Positions 33,773-63,986 of a stretch of 64,000 nt of DNA are shown here, in pieces. Source of the DNA: a virus. Within the stretch, counting starts at the first letter, position 1. Each line of letters opens with the position of its first letter. A model generated the notes under the pieces. It did no database searches and was not told where the DNA came from. It worked only from the letters and a program-made list of their open reading frames with translations. The translations under genes were made by a program, and so were the position numbers. The DNA is taken from positions 1-64,000 of IMG/VR virus record IMGVR_UViG_3300046660_000510. One strand, given 5' to 3'.

Positions 33773-34927
33773 TCAGCCGGACACGGACGAGGACACCTCG
33801 AGGCCGTTCTCCACGGCGTACTCGTTCAGTACGCGCAGCGTCTTGACCAGCTCGCCCGTGGGCATCTTCCGGATGAGGTGCTGGCCGATGAAGTTCCCGT
33901 CGTCGTACGGCAAGGTACGCCCGCTGGGCAATGGCGCCTCGATTCCCTGCTCGGTGTGGCGAGGCTCGGGAATGACCTCCACTGCTGGCGAATCCGTTAC
34001 GGGCTCCGTACGTGCGGGCGGGACCGGTTCGGGGACGCTGACGGACTGCCGCGCAGCGGTACGCGGCTCGGGGGGTTTTACGGCCGTAAAACTCTCCGGC
34101 CGGGTCTGGGCCGGTGCCGCCCTCGCGGCAGACGCGGCAACCGGGATCGGCTCGGCAGGAAGTGTCACGGGAGCGGCAGGCGTCGGGGGTGCCTGCTTGG
34201 CTTCCCTCCGGGCGGCCGTACGGGCGGCGGCGGCCGCGGCCTTGCGCCCCTGCTCCTCTTCCCACCACTGCAACTGCTCCTGGACGCCCCAGGCCTTGTC
34301 ACGGGCCAGCTTCCCAAGGGACCTGGCCGACTCGAGGGGAAGAGCCTTCTTGCGGACCAGGTGCTGAACATCGGGCGCCAGGTGCGTCAGGAGGATGCGC
34401 TGGGTGACCCAGCCGTCGACGCGTTCGAAGTGCTGGGCGACCGCCCGGTTGGAGCCGAACTCGGCGACCAGGGCCTGTACGGCGTAGGCCTCTTCGATGG
34501 GGTCGAAGTTCTGCCGGTCGACGTTCTCGGAGACGACCGCTTCCATGAACGCCTTGCGGCTGACCGCGAAGTCGTCGTCGATCACGCAGTTGAGCATTGG
34601 GAGACCGACGACTGTGGCAGCACGGTAGCGGCGCTCGCCGCTGACGATGACGACGTCCACGTCACCGACGCGGTCCTCGTGATCGGGCCACAGTTTCAGG
34701 TACGCGGCCCGGGTGACGACGGGGCAGGGCTGGTTCTGGCGCCGTGCCAGGCTCTTACCGAAGTCGATCAGGTCGTCCTCGGTGCCGAAGTCCTTTCGCG
34801 GGTTGACCTGGTTCGGTGAGATCCGGGAGAGGGGAACCCGCAGCAGCCGGCCCGCAGCCTTCGTGTCGAGACGAGCGGCGTCCTCGTCGTCGTCGAAGAA
34901 GTCATCGAACTCGTTCCGGGAAGCCAC
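33773..34927 (-). CDS. parB: ParB-family partition protein, 384 aa
   Basis: The N-terminal nuclease-like domain has the GERRYRA box (97-103), where ParB proteins bind CTP, and ENVDRQNFDPIEEA after it. An HTH follows (FGSNRAVAQHFERVDGWVTQ). The centre from about 220 to 330 is low-complexity Ala/Pro. The C-terminus (GNFIGQHLIRKMPTGELVKT, LRVLNEYAVENGLE) probably dimerises. It starts directly after parA. A perfect palindrome lies inside the gene at 34075-34092, and a second copy lies before parA, as expected for parS. Confidence 0.92.
   Translation of the reverse strand: MASRNEFDDFFDDDEDAARLDTKAAGRLLRVPLSRISPNQVNPRKDFGTEDDLIDFGKSLARRQNQPCPVVTRAAYLKLWPDHEDRVGDVDVVIVSGERRYRAATVVGLPMLNCVIDDDFAVSRKAFMEAVVSENVDRQNFDPIEEAYAVQALVAEFGSNRAVAQHFERVDGWVTQRILLTHLAPDVQHLVRKKALPLESARSLGKLARDKAWGVQEQLQWWEEEQGRKAAAAAARTAARREAKQAPPTPAAPVTLPAEPIPVAASAARAAPAQTRPESFTAVKPPEPRTAARQSVSVPEPVPPARTEPVTDSPAVEVIPEPRHTEQGIEAPLPSGRTLPYDDGNFIGQHLIRKMPTGELVKTLRVLNEYAVENGLEVSSSVSG
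34075..34092. promoter_or_regulatory. parS: Candidate parS site 1, inside parB
   Basis: GTTTTACGGCCGTAAAAC is an 18-bp perfect palindrome. The same sequence occurs at 35763-35780 upstream of parA. It is AT-rich at both ends, unlike the surrounding coding DNA, where it encodes FTAVK. Palindromes of 14-18 bp in or near parAB are the usual ParB loading sites. Confidence 0.72.
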
Positions 34928-35661
34928 TACTTGCCCCCCGCGTACCGCTGGCGGCGCAGCTGGTGCTCGAGGGCCAGGGCGAGGAAGTCCTGCTTGGCTT
35001 TCGTGGCGGTGTGGTTGCTCTCGTACTGCGTGCAGAAGCGTCCGTCAGTGATGCCGCGGGCGTGCAGTTTGTAGCGGCGGATGGTGGAGCTGTAGAGCGA
35101 CCATCCGCGCTTGGTCACCATGCTGCGGGTTCGCTCGAGGTCCGCTTTGCTGTCGCGGGGGTCCCAGTTGGAGAGGACGACTCCGTAGGGGAGCTGGCGA
35201 GGGATGACGACCTGCTCGATGGTCGTCTTGGTGGGGGTGAACCCGGGGCCGTCTGTTTCGAGGGGGACGATGACGTCGTCGGCGACATCGAGGATGGCGC
35301 GCAGGGAGTCACCAACGGTTCCGTCGCCGAGTGGGTCGATGGAGTCGGCTACCCCGTTGAGGGGGAGGAAGCCGGGGGTGTCGACGATGATGATGTCGGC
35401 TTTGGCGCGGCGCAGGCGGCGCAGGTTGTCCACGTTGGAGCTGGCGTCGACCACGCGGAAGGGGACGGGGCGGCCGGCCTTTTCGACCCTGGTCGCCCAT
35501 TCGATGCTGGTTCCCTGGGGGTCTATCGAGACGACGGCGACGGACTGGTCGCCGTTGCCGTTGTTGCCGAGGATCTCTGAGTAGACGGCGGCGAGGTTGA
35601 CCGTGATGGTCGATTTCCCAATGCCGCCCTTCTGGTTCAAGAGCACGGTGATGTAGGGCAT
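34927..35661 (-). CDS. parA: ParA-family partition ATPase, 244 aa
   Basis: The deviant Walker A is KGGIGKST (11-18). VAVVSIDPQGTSIEW and IIIVDTPGFLP mark the switch and Walker B regions. There is no N-terminal HTH, so it is a small (type Ib-like or chromosomal-type) ParA that relies on ParB for DNA specificity. Its stop overlaps the parB start. With parB and two parS-like palindromes it makes a complete partition system that moves the element at division. Confidence 0.93.
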   Translation of the reverse strand: MPYITVLLNQKGGIGKSTITVNLAAVYSEILGNNGNGDQSVAVVSIDPQGTSIEWATRVEKAGRPVPFRVVDASSNVDNLRRLRRAKADIIIVDTPGFLPLNGVADSIDPLGDGTVGDSLRAILDVADDVIVPLETDGPGFTPTKTTIEQVVIPRQLPYGVVLSNWDPRDSKADLERTRSMVTKRGWSLYSSTIRRYKLHARGITDGRFCTQYESNHTATKAKQDFLALALEHQLRRQRYAGGK

Positions 35662-35760: not shown

Positions 35761-35782
35761 GAGTTTTACGGCCGTAAAACTC
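35761..35782. promoter_or_regulatory. parS: Candidate parS site 2, upstream of parA
   Basis: GAGTTTTACGGCCGTAAAACTC is a perfect 22-bp palindrome containing the same 18-bp core as site 1. It lies 100 bases before parA and directly after the stop of the 49 aa gene. ParB binding here could also repress parAB. Confidence 0.75.
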
Positions 35783-36157: not shown

Positions 36158-36943
36158 TCATGCGACGTCGAAGGCGCGGCGCACCGGTGCCGCGTCGCCA
36201 CCGCCGCGCTTCCGGGCGATCGCAGCCCGGCGGATCTGTTCGGCCCGGTCCACCGCGGGCGCCGTGAGGCGCTCGAGCTCGGCGACGGCGTCCGTGAACG
36301 CGGTCTCCGGCTCCCGATTGGCGGGGTGGGCCAGGACCTGGTTCTGTCGCTCGATGGCGTCGACGACGTGCGGATCGGTGGGCTCCCGGCTGGCCTTGGC
36401 GGCCTGGTGGGCCTCGAAGGTGCGGCGGAAGCCGGCGCTGGCGGTCTCCCTGGTGCGGACGGGCGCGGGCTCCGGAGCGGGTTCCTCTGCGGCAGGGGGC
36501 GGCGCAGCGGTGGCTCCGGCGGCCAGGACTCGAATCTTGCGGACCGCGGGCCGGCCCAGCCGGTCGTTGAGGTGCTTGGCCAGCTGCCGCTCGAAGAGAC
36601 GGATCTGCGTGGCGTATGCCGGACTCGAGGGCCGCAGGGTGAGTAGACCGTGTTCGGCGTCGTAGCTGACGGGCTGCACGGTGGTGGCGAGTTCGGTGGG
36701 GCAGATCTGCGTCCACTGGTCGATGAGTTCGCCGCCGCCGATGCTCTCCTTCCAGCCTTGTTCGGCGGTGAGGCGTTCGAGGATGCCGCCCAGCCCCATG
36801 GGGTCGCGGCCGCCGGTGCGGCTGTCTCGGACAGTGCGGCGGGTTTTGCGGACGGGTCCGGCCGGGCGGGTCTTCGCGGCCGCGCGGGCGGCGGCGAGGA
36901 CCTGGCGGGCGAGGTCGGCACCGGAAGCGGTGGGCTCAGCCAT
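36158..36943 (-). CDS. DciA-like (DUF721) protein, 261 aa
   Basis: Residues 45-140 match DUF721/DciA: RDPMGLGGILERLTAEQGWK, LIDQWTQICPTELATTVQPV, GLLTLRPSSPAYATQIRLFE and QLAKHLNDRLGRPAVRKIRV. DciA helps load the DnaB helicase on DNA in many bacteria, including Streptomyces, where its gene is near the chromosomal origin. The C-terminal 120 residues are an Ala/Pro linker and helices that chromosomal copies lack. It sits between parAB and rep, so a role in replication start is likely. Confidence 0.85.
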   Translation of the reverse strand: MAEPTASGADLARQVLAAARAAAKTRPAGPVRKTRRTVRDSRTGGRDPMGLGGILERLTAEQGWKESIGGGELIDQWTQICPTELATTVQPVSYDAEHGLLTLRPSSPAYATQIRLFERQLAKHLNDRLGRPAVRKIRVLAAGATAAPPPAAEEPAPEPAPVRTRETASAGFRRTFEAHQAAKASREPTDPHVVDAIERQNQVLAHPANREPETAFTDAVAELERLTAPAVDRAEQIRRAAIARKRGGGDAAPVRRAFDVA

Positions 36944-37454
36944 GGTGGTTCTCCACTCCGGAGTCGGGGAAGTCCCACCGGCCGCGGTCGTTCAGGTAGA
37001 TCGCGCCGAGCCGGTGCGCCTCGCGGACCGTGCCGACGCCGTCCGCAGCGTGATCGATGGGCCCCAAAGCTTCGATCTCCGCAAGCTCGCGGGCCTGCGC
37101 GTCGGTCATCGTGCCGGCGCTGGCGGCCAGGGAGGTGACGACCTGGTAGGTCATCTCCAGCAGTTCGCTGATCTGCTGCGCGGTGCACGTTGCGGGCCCG
37201 GTGAAGGGGTCGTCCATGACGAACGCGTCCTGGCGGATGCACTGCTCCAGCCGGAAGTCCGCGACCGTCAGGGGGCCCTCGTACTCGTCCTGGAGCCAGG
37301 CTGTGCCGTCCTCGCCAAACTCCTCGATCAGGAGGTCATCAGGGCACTGCTGGTCGTAGCCGGGGTGCTTCGGGCGGGCGGCGGGCATGGGGGCCGTGAA
37401 GGGGTTGCGGCGGCTCTTGTGCTTGGCGTTGCGGCGCTTCTTCGACTTGGGCAT
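36936..37454 (-). CDS. Hypothetical protein, 172 aa
   Basis: A very basic start (MPKSKKRRNAKHKSRRNPF) precedes an acidic, helical body (EEFGEDGTAWLQDEYEGPLT, ISELLEMTYQVVTSLAASAG). The gene overlaps the DciA-like gene by eight bases and follows rep by 11, so it is in the replication operon. It may be a DNA-bound accessory factor. No family recognised. Confidence 0.75.
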   Translation of the reverse strand: MPKSKKRRNAKHKSRRNPFTAPMPAARPKHPGYDQQCPDDLLIEEFGEDGTAWLQDEYEGPLTVADFRLEQCIRQDAFVMDDPFTGPATCTAQQISELLEMTYQVVTSLAASAGTMTDAQARELAEIEALGPIDHAADGVGTVREAHRLGAIYLNDRGRWDFPDSGVENHHG

Positions 37455-37465
37455 GTCGTGTCCTG

Positions 37466-38836
37466 TCAGATGCGGGAGTAGCTGGCGGTCCGGGCGTCCT
37501 GGCCGATGGCGTACTTGCACAGGGCCAGGCCGTACAGGTCGATGGCGTCGTCGGGGTCGTCCTCGTAGTGGGCGATGACCTCGGGCCAGTTGTTCCAGTC
37601 CATGCGGACCGCCTTGCGGTCTTCGTCGGTGCGCTCCGGTTCGGGCGCAGGCTGGGCGAACAGCGCAGCCAGGGAGGCGAGGTCCGCCAGCTCACGGGCC
37701 GCGGTGCTGTCCTCCCAGGCGACGGCCTGCGCCAGGTCGTCCTGCATCTGCCGGTCCTGCTCGAGGCGCTCCTGCGCGGCCTGCAACTCGGCGGCGAGGA
37801 GGCGGTGCGGGCGGTCGGGCTGCCAGGCGAACCCGGCGGCGCGGGTGTGCCCGGCTTCGACGGCGAACCGGACGGCCTGGTCCTCGGTCCACTGCTGCTC
37901 GCCCATGTCGGCGCACACCCACCGCAGCTGGTCATGGGTGGCCCGGCACATCCACGGAACGCGGCTGCGGATGGCCCTGGCGAGCTTGTCCCCGAGCTGC
38001 ATGCCCGCGGCGGTGACGGGGACTCCGAGGATCGTGGCCCGCTTCTTGCCGCTGGCGGTCTTGGTCGTTGCGGGGGAGTTGTTTCGCGACCGCGTTGCGG
38101 TAGTAGTAAAACCACCCACTAGATCAACCTGACCCACTTCCTTAACCACCGTTAGGGAAGGGGGCGCATGGCCCTCCGAACTGGAGTTATCCACAGGCGG
38201 GTTATCCACAGGCTTCTGCTGGTCCCGGAGGTCCACAACGATCCGCGCGGTGTACCCGGAGCCGACGATGCGGTGACCCATGGCGTGGTCGTACGAGGGC
38301 GGGATGACCGCGGCGTACACGGTGGCGGTGGCCGCGTATCCGGGGAGGCCGAGGATGGGGCGCACGTTGGTGCGGGTGCCGTGTTGGACCCATGCGAGGG
38401 CGCCCAGCTCCCGCAGGTACTTCACGTGGCGCTTCACGGTGGCCTTGTCGATGCCGAGGCGGGCCGCGGTCTCGAGCATGCAGTAGCGGGCGTGTCCGGT
38501 GTCGTAGTCCATGCGCGCCGCGAGGTCTTCGGCGACGCGCTGCGTGGTGGCGTTCGCGCGGCCGTGTAGGCCGGCTGCGATCAGCCACGCGACTGCGCGA
38601 AGCCACCGACGCGGGCCGCTCCGGCGCGAGGCAGTGCACGCCACCTCTTGGGCGGCGCCGCGGACGAGAGCAACCTGGCCTGCACTGTAATCGTTCGTGC
38701 GTTCGATTTCGACAGTAGGGACGTGCGTGTCGCGGGTGGATTCGGTGCACTGGGTGTCACCCGCGCGAGGGGAGATAAGCGGCGAATCACCCGGGCGGGG
38801 AGCGGGAAGCTGACAAACGGTCGTGCGGTGCTGCAC
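37466..38836 (-). CDS. Winged-helix replication initiation protein candidate, 456 aa
   Basis: The GTG at 38836 follows GAAGGCAGG by about seven bases; the frame also stays open to 38875. Residues about 60-170 read as helix-rich DNA-binding region with a winged helix (LETAARLGIDKATVKRHVKY, LRELGALAWVQHGTRTN). This layout resembles rep proteins of Streptomyces linear plasmids and phage-plasmids. The gene holds two consensus DnaA boxes and lies upstream of DciA and ParAB genes. No polymerase or primase motif is visible, so it would act as an initiator that recruits host proteins. Confidence 0.72.
   Translation of the reverse strand: MQHRTTVCQLPAPRPGDSPLISPRAGDTQCTESTRDTHVPTVEIERTNDYSAGQVALVRGAAQEVACTASRRSGPRRWLRAVAWLIAAGLHGRANATTQRVAEDLAARMDYDTGHARYCMLETAARLGIDKATVKRHVKYLRELGALAWVQHGTRTNVRPILGLPGYAATATVYAAVIPPSYDHAMGHRIVGSGYTARIVVDLRDQQKPVDNPPVDNSSSEGHAPPSLTVVKEVGQVDLVGGFTTTATRSRNNSPATTKTASGKKRATILGVPVTAAGMQLGDKLARAIRSRVPWMCRATHDQLRWVCADMGEQQWTEDQAVRFAVEAGHTRAAGFAWQPDRPHRLLAAELQAAQERLEQDRQMQDDLAQAVAWEDSTAARELADLASLAALFAQPAPEPERTDEDRKAVRMDWNNWPEVIAHYEDDPDDAIDLYGLALCKYAIGQDARTASYSRI
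38100..38210. other. Candidate replication origin: two consensus DnaA boxes and an AT-richer stretch
   Basis: TTATCCACA occurs twice (38187-38195, 38202-38210) as a 15-bp tandem repeat (GTTATCCACAGGC). It encodes PVDNPPVDN inside the rep gene. About 35-85 bases away lies a stretch with runs such as TAGTAGTAAAACC and CACTTCCTTAACC (38104-38150), AT-richer than its surroundings. An origin inside rep is common on Streptomyces plasmids. Confidence 0.62.
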
Positions 38837-38861
38837 TATGTACCTGCCTTCGTTGATGGCC

Positions 38862-38875
38862 TTGCGGGAACGCAA
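38862..38875. promoter_or_regulatory. Short inverted repeat just upstream of rep
   Basis: TTGCG-GGAA-CGCAA lies 26 bases before the rep start. It resembles the half sites of the shared promoter palindrome (TTGCG...CGCAA) but with a different spacing. It could be an operator for rep. The remaining 200 bases up to 39073 show no gene. Confidence 0.35.
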
Positions 38876-39073
38876 AAGCCCTCGTTGGCGGTGAAGTGGT
38901 TCGTGGAGAACCTGTAGGTCGCTCGAATCTCGGGCCGGTCGCCAAACCGGATCGAAGTTCGGGCCTTAGCTCCGAGCGTCAACTCGGGGCCGTGGCACGA
39001 AGGCCGCGCACGGTGCGCCAAACACCAGCGGCCAAGGCGGTAGAGGCAAAGGACCTCCCGCCCAGAACATGAG

Positions 39074-61950: not shown

Positions 61951-63054
61951 TCACACGCCTCCGTACTGGTACATGGAGGCCGGCTTGAGGCTGATGACGG
62001 CCTGCGGCCCGCCCTGCGCGGTGGGCTTGATGGTCCAGCCGGTGATGCGGCACCAGCCGGTGTAGTCGGTCCACGCGTTGTGGATCCGCACGTAGATGTC
62101 GTCGCCGACCTGCCAGGACCCGAACGGTGCGGCGCTGGTGTTGCGGATGGTGACCTGCTCCACCGAGCCGAGGGTCTGCCGCCAGGCGCGCTCCCATTCC
62201 ACGCGCTGCTTGAGGACGTCGTTGCCGTTGATCTCCGGGTAGTCGACGGCGGCCTCGAGGCGCAGGCGTCCGTTGCGGACGGCGGAGATCTGCCGGAGTT
62301 TGGCGCTGCCGTCGCCGGCGCCGGAGCCGATGACGACCTGCGCGTAGTCGTCGCCCGCGAGGGCCTCTTCGGGCTCTTCGATGATGTTGACGCCGGACGC
62401 GATGGAGATGTCGGTGCGGCGCGCGCCGAGACGGGGCCAGCCGAGGCGGATCCGTTTCACCACATCCGTCTTGGCCGCGTTCCAGGCGGTGGCGCACGTG
62501 TAGTCGGGGGTGGCGTCGTCGGAGACGATCTCATCGACCTGGTCGCCGAGCGCTTTCATGTCGTACCAGAACGAGTTGTACGGCTCCGCCGGGGTGCCGA
62601 CTTTCGACGTGGACGTGGTGGAGTCGACGACGACGCCGAGGTTGCCGTCGGCAATGGACTGTGCGTACGTCCAGATGTTGCGGACCACGTCGCACCGGTC
62701 CGTGTAGACGTAGGGTCCGCGACCGCCGTGCTGGCCGTCCACGTCGAACCTCTTCTGCAGGTAAGACGACCACGAGGCGGCCTCAATGCTGTAGTCGTTG
62801 CCCTCGGCGCGGACGTCCCAGACGATGCCGCCCCACTGCAGCTGGCCGGACGATTCGACGTAGATGAGCGTGTTGCCGGGGTCGGCCAGGGCGGGGCTCG
62901 AGGCGACCAGGCGGGGCGACAGCTTCCCCGACAGGCTGCCGGGCCCGTTGAGTTCGTCGCCGTACTCCAGGTCCGTGACGGGCAGCGCGGTGGACAGCCA
63001 GGCGCCGGTGAGCGCGTTCTGCGTGAGGACCCGGTCGGGCAGGGGGGCCGTCAT
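61951..63054 (-). CDS. Minor tail (hub-like) protein, 367 aa
   Basis: The sequence order (LTGAWLSTALPVTDLEYGDE, NTLIYVESSGQLQWGGIVWD, SSYLQKRFDVDGQHGG, VIISLKP-like end PQAVISLKPASMYQYGG) matches the Gp37-like minor tail proteins of actinophages. These form the tail tip hub. The ATG overlaps the previous gene by four bases. Length is normal. Confidence 0.88.
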   Translation of the reverse strand: MTAPLPDRVLTQNALTGAWLSTALPVTDLEYGDELNGPGSLSGKLSPRLVASSPALADPGNTLIYVESSGQLQWGGIVWDVRAEGNDYSIEAASWSSYLQKRFDVDGQHGGRGPYVYTDRCDVVRNIWTYAQSIADGNLGVVVDSTTSTSKVGTPAEPYNSFWYDMKALGDQVDEIVSDDATPDYTCATAWNAAKTDVVKRIRLGWPRLGARRTDISIASGVNIIEEPEEALAGDDYAQVVIGSGAGDGSAKLRQISAVRNGRLRLEAAVDYPEINGNDVLKQRVEWERAWRQTLGSVEQVTIRNTSAAPFGSWQVGDDIYVRIHNAWTDYTGWCRITGWTIKPTAQGGPQAVISLKPASMYQYGGV

Positions 63055-63986
63055 CGGGGCGCCTCGAGGAACTCGATGTCGGCGATCAGGGTGGTGGACC
63101 CGTCGACACCGACCTTGCCTGCGTTGCCGGGAAACCCGCATGCCTGGAATCGCAGGGTCTGACTGGTGCCGCGGTAGGCGGACGGAATGGTGAGGGTGTC
63201 GCCGAGGACGATGGTGCCGCGGCGGGTGCCGGTCTGGTTGTCGTCGAGGTTGACGGACTGCACGGTCAGGGAGGCACCGAACGTGGCGCGCAGGCCGCCG
63301 AAGAACGCGGCGGTGTTGTAGCGGATCTGCCCCACGGACAGGGACAGGACGGCCTTGGTGGCCCAGGAGGGGATGGCCACCGACCAGCCGGCGGCGGTGG
63401 AGAAGTTGCTGTACGTGCCGGAGGTTCCGCTGATGTCGGTGGACAGGGCCGTCGGGGACTGGGTGAGGAGGGTCCGCTGGCGGCGCGGGTTCGCGACCTG
63501 CCGCAAGTCGGTGATCATCGCGTCTGTGATGGTGCTGGTGCTGGCGGGGATGTCGATCCGGGCCAGCGGAATCCCGGTCCGCCCGTCAGGGATGGCGGTT
63601 GCCGACGATGACACGTTGGAGATCACCTGGAAGTAGGTGACCTGGTCGACGGTCGGATCGAGGGTTCCCTCGTACTCGGGGTCTTCCACGCGCAGGATCA
63701 CCATGTCGGACCGTGCGGACCCGCCGGTGGCTGCGATGTCCACGTTGACGGCCCCGGTGTTGCACGCCGAGTAGTGCCCCTGGAAGGCGTTCACGCGGCC
63801 CTGAATGACCCCGGAGCCGTCGGCGACCGTGACTCCGGCACCGGGGGTTGAGCGCTGGGTGACCTTCAGGTCGTCGCCTTCGGTGATGCCTTCGGCGCCG
63901 CGCGCCAAGTCCCGGACCAACATGCGGAACTGCTGCGCCGAATGGGTGGCCCCGTTGGTGAGGATGGGCCGCGGAAACAAGGCCAT
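63051..63986 (-). CDS. Minor tail protein, 311 aa
   Basis: It opens MALFPRPILTNGATHSAQQF and has a beta-rich structure (VTVADGSGVIQGRVNAFQGH, MVILRVEDPEYEGTLDPTVD) with a C-terminal lectin-like part (ATFGASLTVQSVNLDDNQTG). Such proteins form part of the tail tip next to the hub. AGGAG precedes the ATG near the window edge. It shares four bases with the hub gene. Confidence 0.86.
   Translation of the reverse strand: MALFPRPILTNGATHSAQQFRMLVRDLARGAEGITEGDDLKVTQRSTPGAGVTVADGSGVIQGRVNAFQGHYSACNTGAVNVDIAATGGSARSDMVILRVEDPEYEGTLDPTVDQVTYFQVISNVSSSATAIPDGRTGIPLARIDIPASTSTITDAMITDLRQVANPRRQRTLLTQSPTALSTDISGTSGTYSNFSTAAGWSVAIPSWATKAVLSLSVGQIRYNTAAFFGGLRATFGASLTVQSVNLDDNQTGTRRGTIVLGDTLTIPSAYRGTSQTLRFQACGFPGNAGKVGVDGSTTLIADIEFLEAPR

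Follow-up and report, generated by a model that had tools for sequence, protein, structure and literature searches.

The window analysed in this study comprises bases 1–64,000 of a 74,926-bp IMG/VR virus record from a Streptomyces phage-plasmid related to pZL12. Its minus strand carries a run of replication and partition genes. Read in the direction of transcription, these encode a 456-aa initiator-like protein, Rep (37,466–38,836), a 173-aa product of unassigned function taken from the ORF list (36,936–37,457), a 261-aa DciA-like protein (36,158–36,943), a ParA-family partition ATPase (34,927–35,661) and a ParB-family partition protein (33,773–34,927). A preliminary description of this DNA had placed the DciA-like protein, ParA and ParB in one minus-strand run with rep, and all three were located there. 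Virion genes are found on the same molecule, namely a minor tail protein gene at 61,951–63,141 (2e-65) and genes for tail fibre proteins, and a Rad52-type recombinase, SSB and RusA are also encoded in the window. On the basis of the tail genes, the Rad52-type recombinase, SSB and RusA, and the rep-dciA-parA-parB run, the element was placed with pZL12 (phiZL12), described as a Streptomyces plasmid-phage (GQ919031; Zhong et al., 2010, as cited in PMC4487206). The homologous core lies in the same order as in the pZL12-type elements. Its kin also include many Streptomyces plasmids, mostly of 85–95 kb. Since the relatives are larger, the 74,926-bp record is probably a fragment. Several relatives were deposited as circular plasmids; the record itself is linear.

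Rep is a homolog of pZL12.20c with 54% identity. Its start codon is the GTG at 38,836, within CATAGTGC, which is common to all 23 homologs compared, and this shared start is in frame in each of them except L017. The predicted structure consists of a low-confidence N-terminal region, a winged helix, a disordered linker whose coding part holds the DnaA boxes, and a helical C-terminal half. The linker, residues 184–268, had a pLDDT below 50 and was predicted to be disordered. No Pfam or NCBIfam family matched Rep above the cut-off, and comparison with solved structures by sequence gave no significant match. A fold search with the Rep model returned weak winged-helix matches only (E at least 0.12), so no initiator family can be named. 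A PHROGs search gave no match for Rep, the DciA-like protein or the 173-aa ORF. The name rep is supported by the homology to pZL12.20c and by the anatomy of the protein, and comes without a family name.

A parS candidate, GAGTTTTACGGCCGTAAAACTC, lies upstream of parA (35,761–35,782) and a second candidate, TTTACGGCCGTAAA, in the C-terminal part of parB (34,077–34,090). The TTTACGGCCGTAAA palindrome was found upstream of parA and within parB both here and in several relatives, and TTTACCGCGGTAAA or TATACCGCGGTATA was found in others. No chromosomal parS, TGTTTCACGTGAAACA, was detected within 3 mismatches. The region had been described as copying the neighbourhood of a bacterial chromosomal origin. 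The initiator here is Rep and not DnaA, no chromosomal parS is present and the partition palindrome differs, which leaves the region with neither the DnaA-type initiator nor the parS of a chromosomal oriC. Among the dciA genes, only host copies lie between recF and gyrB. The likeness to a chromosomal origin is an analogy only.

Tandem DnaA boxes within rep

Exact copies of the DnaA box TTATCCACA occur only twice in the 64 kb, and both lie on the plus strand within the minus-strand rep ORF. In the reading direction of rep, the first is at 38,202–38,210 and the second at 38,187–38,195, 15 bp apart and in register, in agreement with the perfect tandem reported in the preliminary description. Both were examined by motif search, rep alignment and a codon test. 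In shuffled windows, 0.29 matches to the relaxed pattern TTWTNCACA are expected per window. A tandem TTRTCCACA pair was present in 17 of 24 related records or genomes. Plasmid and virus records contained at most one tandem pair each, at the rep locus, even in plasmids of 111 and 455 kb, and a backwards control pattern was found 0 times in every record searched.

The boxes occupied the same position of rep in nearly all of the 23 close Rep homologs, most of which had two. Elements such as L012, L018, L022 and L032 have a single full box and were thus missed by the tandem pattern, and in L019 the second box motif is one base off. Among more distant Reps (37–40% identity) the pair was kept in three of four (L024, L045 and L048), always in rep; it was not found in L023 (39% identity). 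At the third base, the E. coli-type DnaA box carries the other variant from the Streptomyces-type box, and in the boxes found here, read as TTRTCCACA, this base varies between A and G, that is, between the two types. The Streptomyces-type box is TTGTCCACA (PMC3583192).

In most homologs the boxes are read in frame as Val-Asp-Asn, and the tandem TTATCCACA could have arisen as a by-product of conservation in the protein, namely of Pro-Val-Asp-Asn repeats. Codon choice was examined in a rep alignment of 26 elements. Spelling a box demands that the preceding codon end in T, as 6% do elsewhere in these genes, and that Val be encoded by GTG (32%). As many as 38 of the 41 Val-Asp-Asn triplets in the linkers were spelled TGTGGA(T/C)AA, as a box, and none of the five found outside the linkers was, in counts that, like the conservation, are not independent because the homologs are related. 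The T before GTG was kept while the residue changed (CCT Pro, GCT Ala, CTT Leu). Moreover, the linker is predicted to be disordered and is otherwise variable, which argues against a conserved protein motif. Synonymous codon identity was 1.4–1.75 times the expected value over most of 38,030–38,209, with two windows at 1.1–1.3, and about 1.2 in most of the gene. The by-product reading was ruled out by the codon test, and we regard it as extremely improbable. As judged from codon usage, these results confirm that the boxes are under selection at the DNA level and are not a coding accident.

An AT-rich stretch beside the boxes and a structured rep leader

An AT-rich stretch in the linker-coding part (38,079–38,148; GC 0.50 against 0.70 for the gene) is a candidate unwinding element. 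In all 23 close homologs, the 70 bp of rep with the lowest GC content (0.46–0.54 against 0.66–0.72) started between −51 and +38 bp from the end of the last box. Synonymous codon identity within 38,079–38,148 was 1.1–1.75 times the expected value, mostly above the usual level of the gene of about 1.2. The locus thus has both the conserved boxes and the adjoining AT-rich element by which a DnaA-dependent origin is recognised on sequence criteria. Boxes and an AT-rich stretch under synonymous constraint would match the expectation for an intragenic origin, and we infer that the linker-coding part may be the working origin, with DnaA binding there. A TAGTAGTA repeat on the plus strand of the AT-rich stretch (38,096–38,112) recalls DnaA-trio motifs. 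The distance of about 80 bp from the boxes to this repeat is too great for the known DnaA-trio arrangement.

The 230 bp upstream of rep (38,837–39,066, minus strand) form a leader with a conserved array of hairpins, several of which have a TTGGCG-type loop. A leader occurs at the equivalent position in L002–L036. Some stem pairs were changed on both sides, as compensatory changes. Most elements use a single loop sequence. It is TTGGCG in one set of elements, the reverse complement CGCCAA in a second and TTGCC in a third, and it switches between elements with closely similar Reps (L007/L009, 87%; L003/L008, 86%). Folding the whole leader with RNAalifold gave a modest consensus (−20 kcal/mol, 6 pairs with double changes), since the elements vary in loop type and in how many hairpins they have. 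Rfam gave no credible match over 38.0–39.5 kb. In some elements, the last leader hairpin, immediately ahead of the ribosome site, is attenuator-like. The leader is a candidate region for the control of copy number or expression, and its pattern would be explained by an antisense RNA or attenuation mechanism through which incompatibility is set. At the 5' end of rep (38,720–38,836, minus strand), where TTGTCAGCTT and GGGCGATTCGC occur in the family, synonymous constraint was 1.4–1.6 times the expected value. This suggests that a second DNA element may lie within the start of the rep coding part.

The hairpin array is also another candidate origin. The boxes might then be regulatory or titration sites for DnaA, timing rep expression or sensing DnaA, and the DNA would open elsewhere, for example in the leader at 38,837–39,066. 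Such an arrangement would fit the conservation and structure of the leader and its inverted repeats, which are of a kind present in Streptomyces plasmid origins, and it would fit the raised synonymous constraint at 38,720–38,840. Iterons occur in the origins of the Streptomyces plasmids pFP1, pFP11 and pWTY27 (PMC3583192). However, rep has its most AT-rich stretch at the boxes or next to them, and loop types that switch between closely similar Reps are unlike an initiator-binding site. We therefore consider opening outside the linker-coding part unlikely, and prefer an origin within rep.

The DciA-like protein and its pairing with Rep

The product of the dciA-like gene matched the DciA family of Pfam (PF05258, 4.9e-16; 59.2 bits against a cut-off of 24) over residues 51–139, the KH/DUF721 domain. 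This domain is preceded by the actinobacterial N-terminal motif GxDLARxAL and followed by a helical arm (residues ~141–261). The best matches to the predicted fold were VcDciA (8a3v), which is V. cholerae DciA within a DnaB complex, and the D. radiodurans DUF721 protein (7ykm), the latter fitting the model at 1.8 Å over 69 columns. The mean pLDDT of the model was 67, which is low overall, with 75–88 in the KH part. By sequence, the only match to a solved structure was a sub-threshold one to 7ykm. With these matches, the protein counts as a genuine KH/DUF721 homolog.

The element copies resemble chromosomal DciA (PMC5109545, PMC5720831, PMC9912922) in the KH/DUF721 domain and in the N-terminal motif of actinobacteria, GxDLARxAL, which nearly all of them have in common with the host. 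They differ from it in context, in the tail and, for the most part, in one residue. Four host genomes each carry another dciA on the chromosome, flanked by recF and gyrB, whereas element copies follow rep; the recF-gyrB context, a usual but not universal trait of the family, is accordingly absent here. The C-terminal arm is about 93–139 residues long in the copies compared from plasmids and phages, against 25–26 in the four chromosomal copies. The position of mycobacterial Trp113, a residue required for full DciA function in mycobacteria (PMC5720831), is Trp in host copies and Tyr in most element copies. The arm probably docks the DciA-like protein to Rep, DnaB or DNA, and the protein may load DnaB.

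A search that started from DciA alone retrieved 27 viral contigs, and a Rep homolog was found upstream of dciA in 27/27. The two genes were no more than 0.9 kb apart in all contigs but L060, whose gap rests on an unreliable start placement, and overlaps of 4 or 8 bp recurred. In the sampled plasmids, a Rep-like gene preceded dciA in six of seven; in the seventh, L046, the annotated gene at this place is short, but a box pair lies just upstream. Large linear plasmids also keep the pair, with reading frames that overlap or nearly abut. The idea that DciA marks phage-plasmids only was dropped, because it stands beside rep on these plasmids. About 200 plasmid records have DciA matches, and so do many phage-plasmids. 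The slot between rep and dciA (36,936–37,457 here, with equivalents in L019, L026 and L002) varies among the relatives and contains genes unrelated to one another, namely a SLOG/DUF2493 gene, a DNA methyltransferase gene or other ORFs, or nothing.

DnaA boxes were present in 12 of the 27 DciA-selected viral contigs, and the rest belonged mostly to a box-less Rep subclade. As this subclade has the same rep-dciA pair, the core plan does not include DnaA boxes in all elements. In the contigs compared, DciA is thus tied to Rep, and the DnaA boxes are a subclade trait. The linkers of box-less Reps (L051, L053, L056, L057, L059, L062, L063, L066, L070 and L072) have a conserved GTTGCACCCnAATGnAGGG-type element, and several of these elements have an inverted GGGTGCAAC copy upstream of it. 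The GTTGCACCCnAATGnAGGG-type element is a candidate Rep-binding site that may replace the DnaA boxes.

No dciA was found near rep in L015, L021 and L033, which keep rep with boxes. Broken DciA relics with in-frame stops lie downstream of an intact rep in the plasmids L016 (8964–9353) and L020 (7342–7533), and they show that the loader was lost at a time when the pairing already existed. Because rep with boxes persists without an intact DciA, the loader seems dispensable in some hosts or contexts. Loss or breakage of DciA in some rep plasmids would also be expected if the protein served mainly in phage production or in competition with host replication by diverting host DnaB, and not in loading at the plasmid origin; the usual Tyr at the Trp113 position is compatible with the same idea. 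The retention of rep-dciA on several large linear plasmids speaks against it, linking DciA to Rep and not to phage genes. We judge such a role unlikely, somewhat more so than opening outside the linker-coding part, and favour loading at the plasmid origin. The earlier proposal that the element probably adds its own loader is supported by the real DciA homolog and its tie to rep in every viral contig retrieved, and has to be qualified by the relatives in which the gene is lost or broken.

Source of DnaA and DnaB

The C-terminal domain of DnaA (PF08299) was not found in this element and was absent from 21 non-host related records, and the same search detected the own DnaA of one host genome. Since these 21 elements encode no DnaA, host DnaA is the natural ligand of the boxes. 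No DnaB_C match was found in the 74.9-kb record, in complete pZL12 or in certain other complete plasmids. Among non-host records, 9 of 25 had a DnaB_C match, one of them partial. The preliminary description had seen no helicase and had proposed that host DnaA and DnaB are recruited. The first point holds for the 74.9-kb fragment and complete pZL12 but not for the nine relatives with a DnaB match, and the second is supported for DnaA in the related elements. These results suggest that the helicase is likely recruited from the host in pZL12-type elements. Host DnaA is expected to be used throughout the group and host DnaB in part of it.

Discussion

In this study, we found that the region resembles pZL12 in its homologous rep (pZL12.20c), DciA (pZL12.18c, deposited as 'Tra3-like'), ParA and ParB, in gene order and in tandem boxes. 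pZL12 also has a parS-like TTTACCGCGGTAAA and lacks a DnaB_C match. The two elements differ in sequence (54% Rep and 47% DciA identity), in box spacing (24 bp in pZL12, 15 here), in leader loops (CGCCAA in pZL12, TTGGCG here) and in the gene in the rep-dciA slot.

In lambda O-P, the origin lies inside the linker-coding part of the initiator gene, which adjoins a helicase-loader gene, and the host helicase is used. The intragenic origin proposed here, the adjoining loader gene and the use of a host helicase would parallel this system. Unlike here, the lambda loader P is unrelated to DciA and O binds iterons, not tandem DnaA boxes; in the present element, partition genes adjoin the pair. Neither PHROGs nor the O and P families of Pfam gave a match for Rep or the DciA-like protein, and the likeness to O and P is one of analogy. 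In repABC of alpha-proteobacteria, the origin lies within the initiator gene at an AT-rich stretch, and ParA/ParB-type genes are linked (PMC3155836). Its intragenic AT-rich origin and linked partition genes resemble the arrangement proposed here, and its antisense RNA control parallels the structured leader. However, repC has no DnaA boxes or iterons, the initiator is unrelated, DciA is absent and the gene order is different. The best reading is that the module would be a lambda O-P-like initiator-loader pair with a loader from the bacterial DciA family, belonging neither to lambda O-P nor to repABC.

We propose that Rep is the initiator and that the origin lies within rep, in the linker-coding part between the winged helix and the helical C-terminal half. 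Host DnaA, together with Rep, would bind the tandem boxes there, and the AT-rich stretch at 38,079–38,148 beside them would melt. The DciA-like protein, encoded co-directionally and usually close behind rep, would bring the replicative helicase to the opened strand. This helicase would be host DnaB in pZL12-like elements and, in some relatives, may be a DnaB that they encode themselves. ParA, ParB and the TTTACGGCCGTAAA sites would partition the copies. The stretch would thus serve a pZL12-type Streptomyces phage-plasmid as its core for replication and partition. This assignment is part of the joint reading of intragenic origin, host DnaA, DciA loader and partition, to which we give a probability of about 0.68.

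The literature searched, outside which lay most subscription papers, including the original pZL12 paper, contained no report of DciA on plasmids or phages. The pairing of rep and dciA across many Streptomyces plasmids seems not to have been described previously. In kind, the locus seems to be an initiator-loader module with a bacterial DciA-family loader. DciA is the ancestral chromosomal helicase loader, which has been displaced repeatedly by phage-derived DnaC/DnaI (PMC5109545). We consider the chances about even that DciA has here been turned into the initiator partner of plasmids and phages, that it gained an element-specific arm tying the loader to Rep at a rep-internal origin, and that the module is widespread in Streptomyces. 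If true, genes would here have moved against the direction known so far, in which loaders from phages took the place of bacterial DciA. With the compact rep-dciA module, initiator, origin, loader and helicase could be tested independently of the essential chromosome. The module would also be evidence that DciA was acquired by mobile elements, and would explain how pZL12-type elements replicate.
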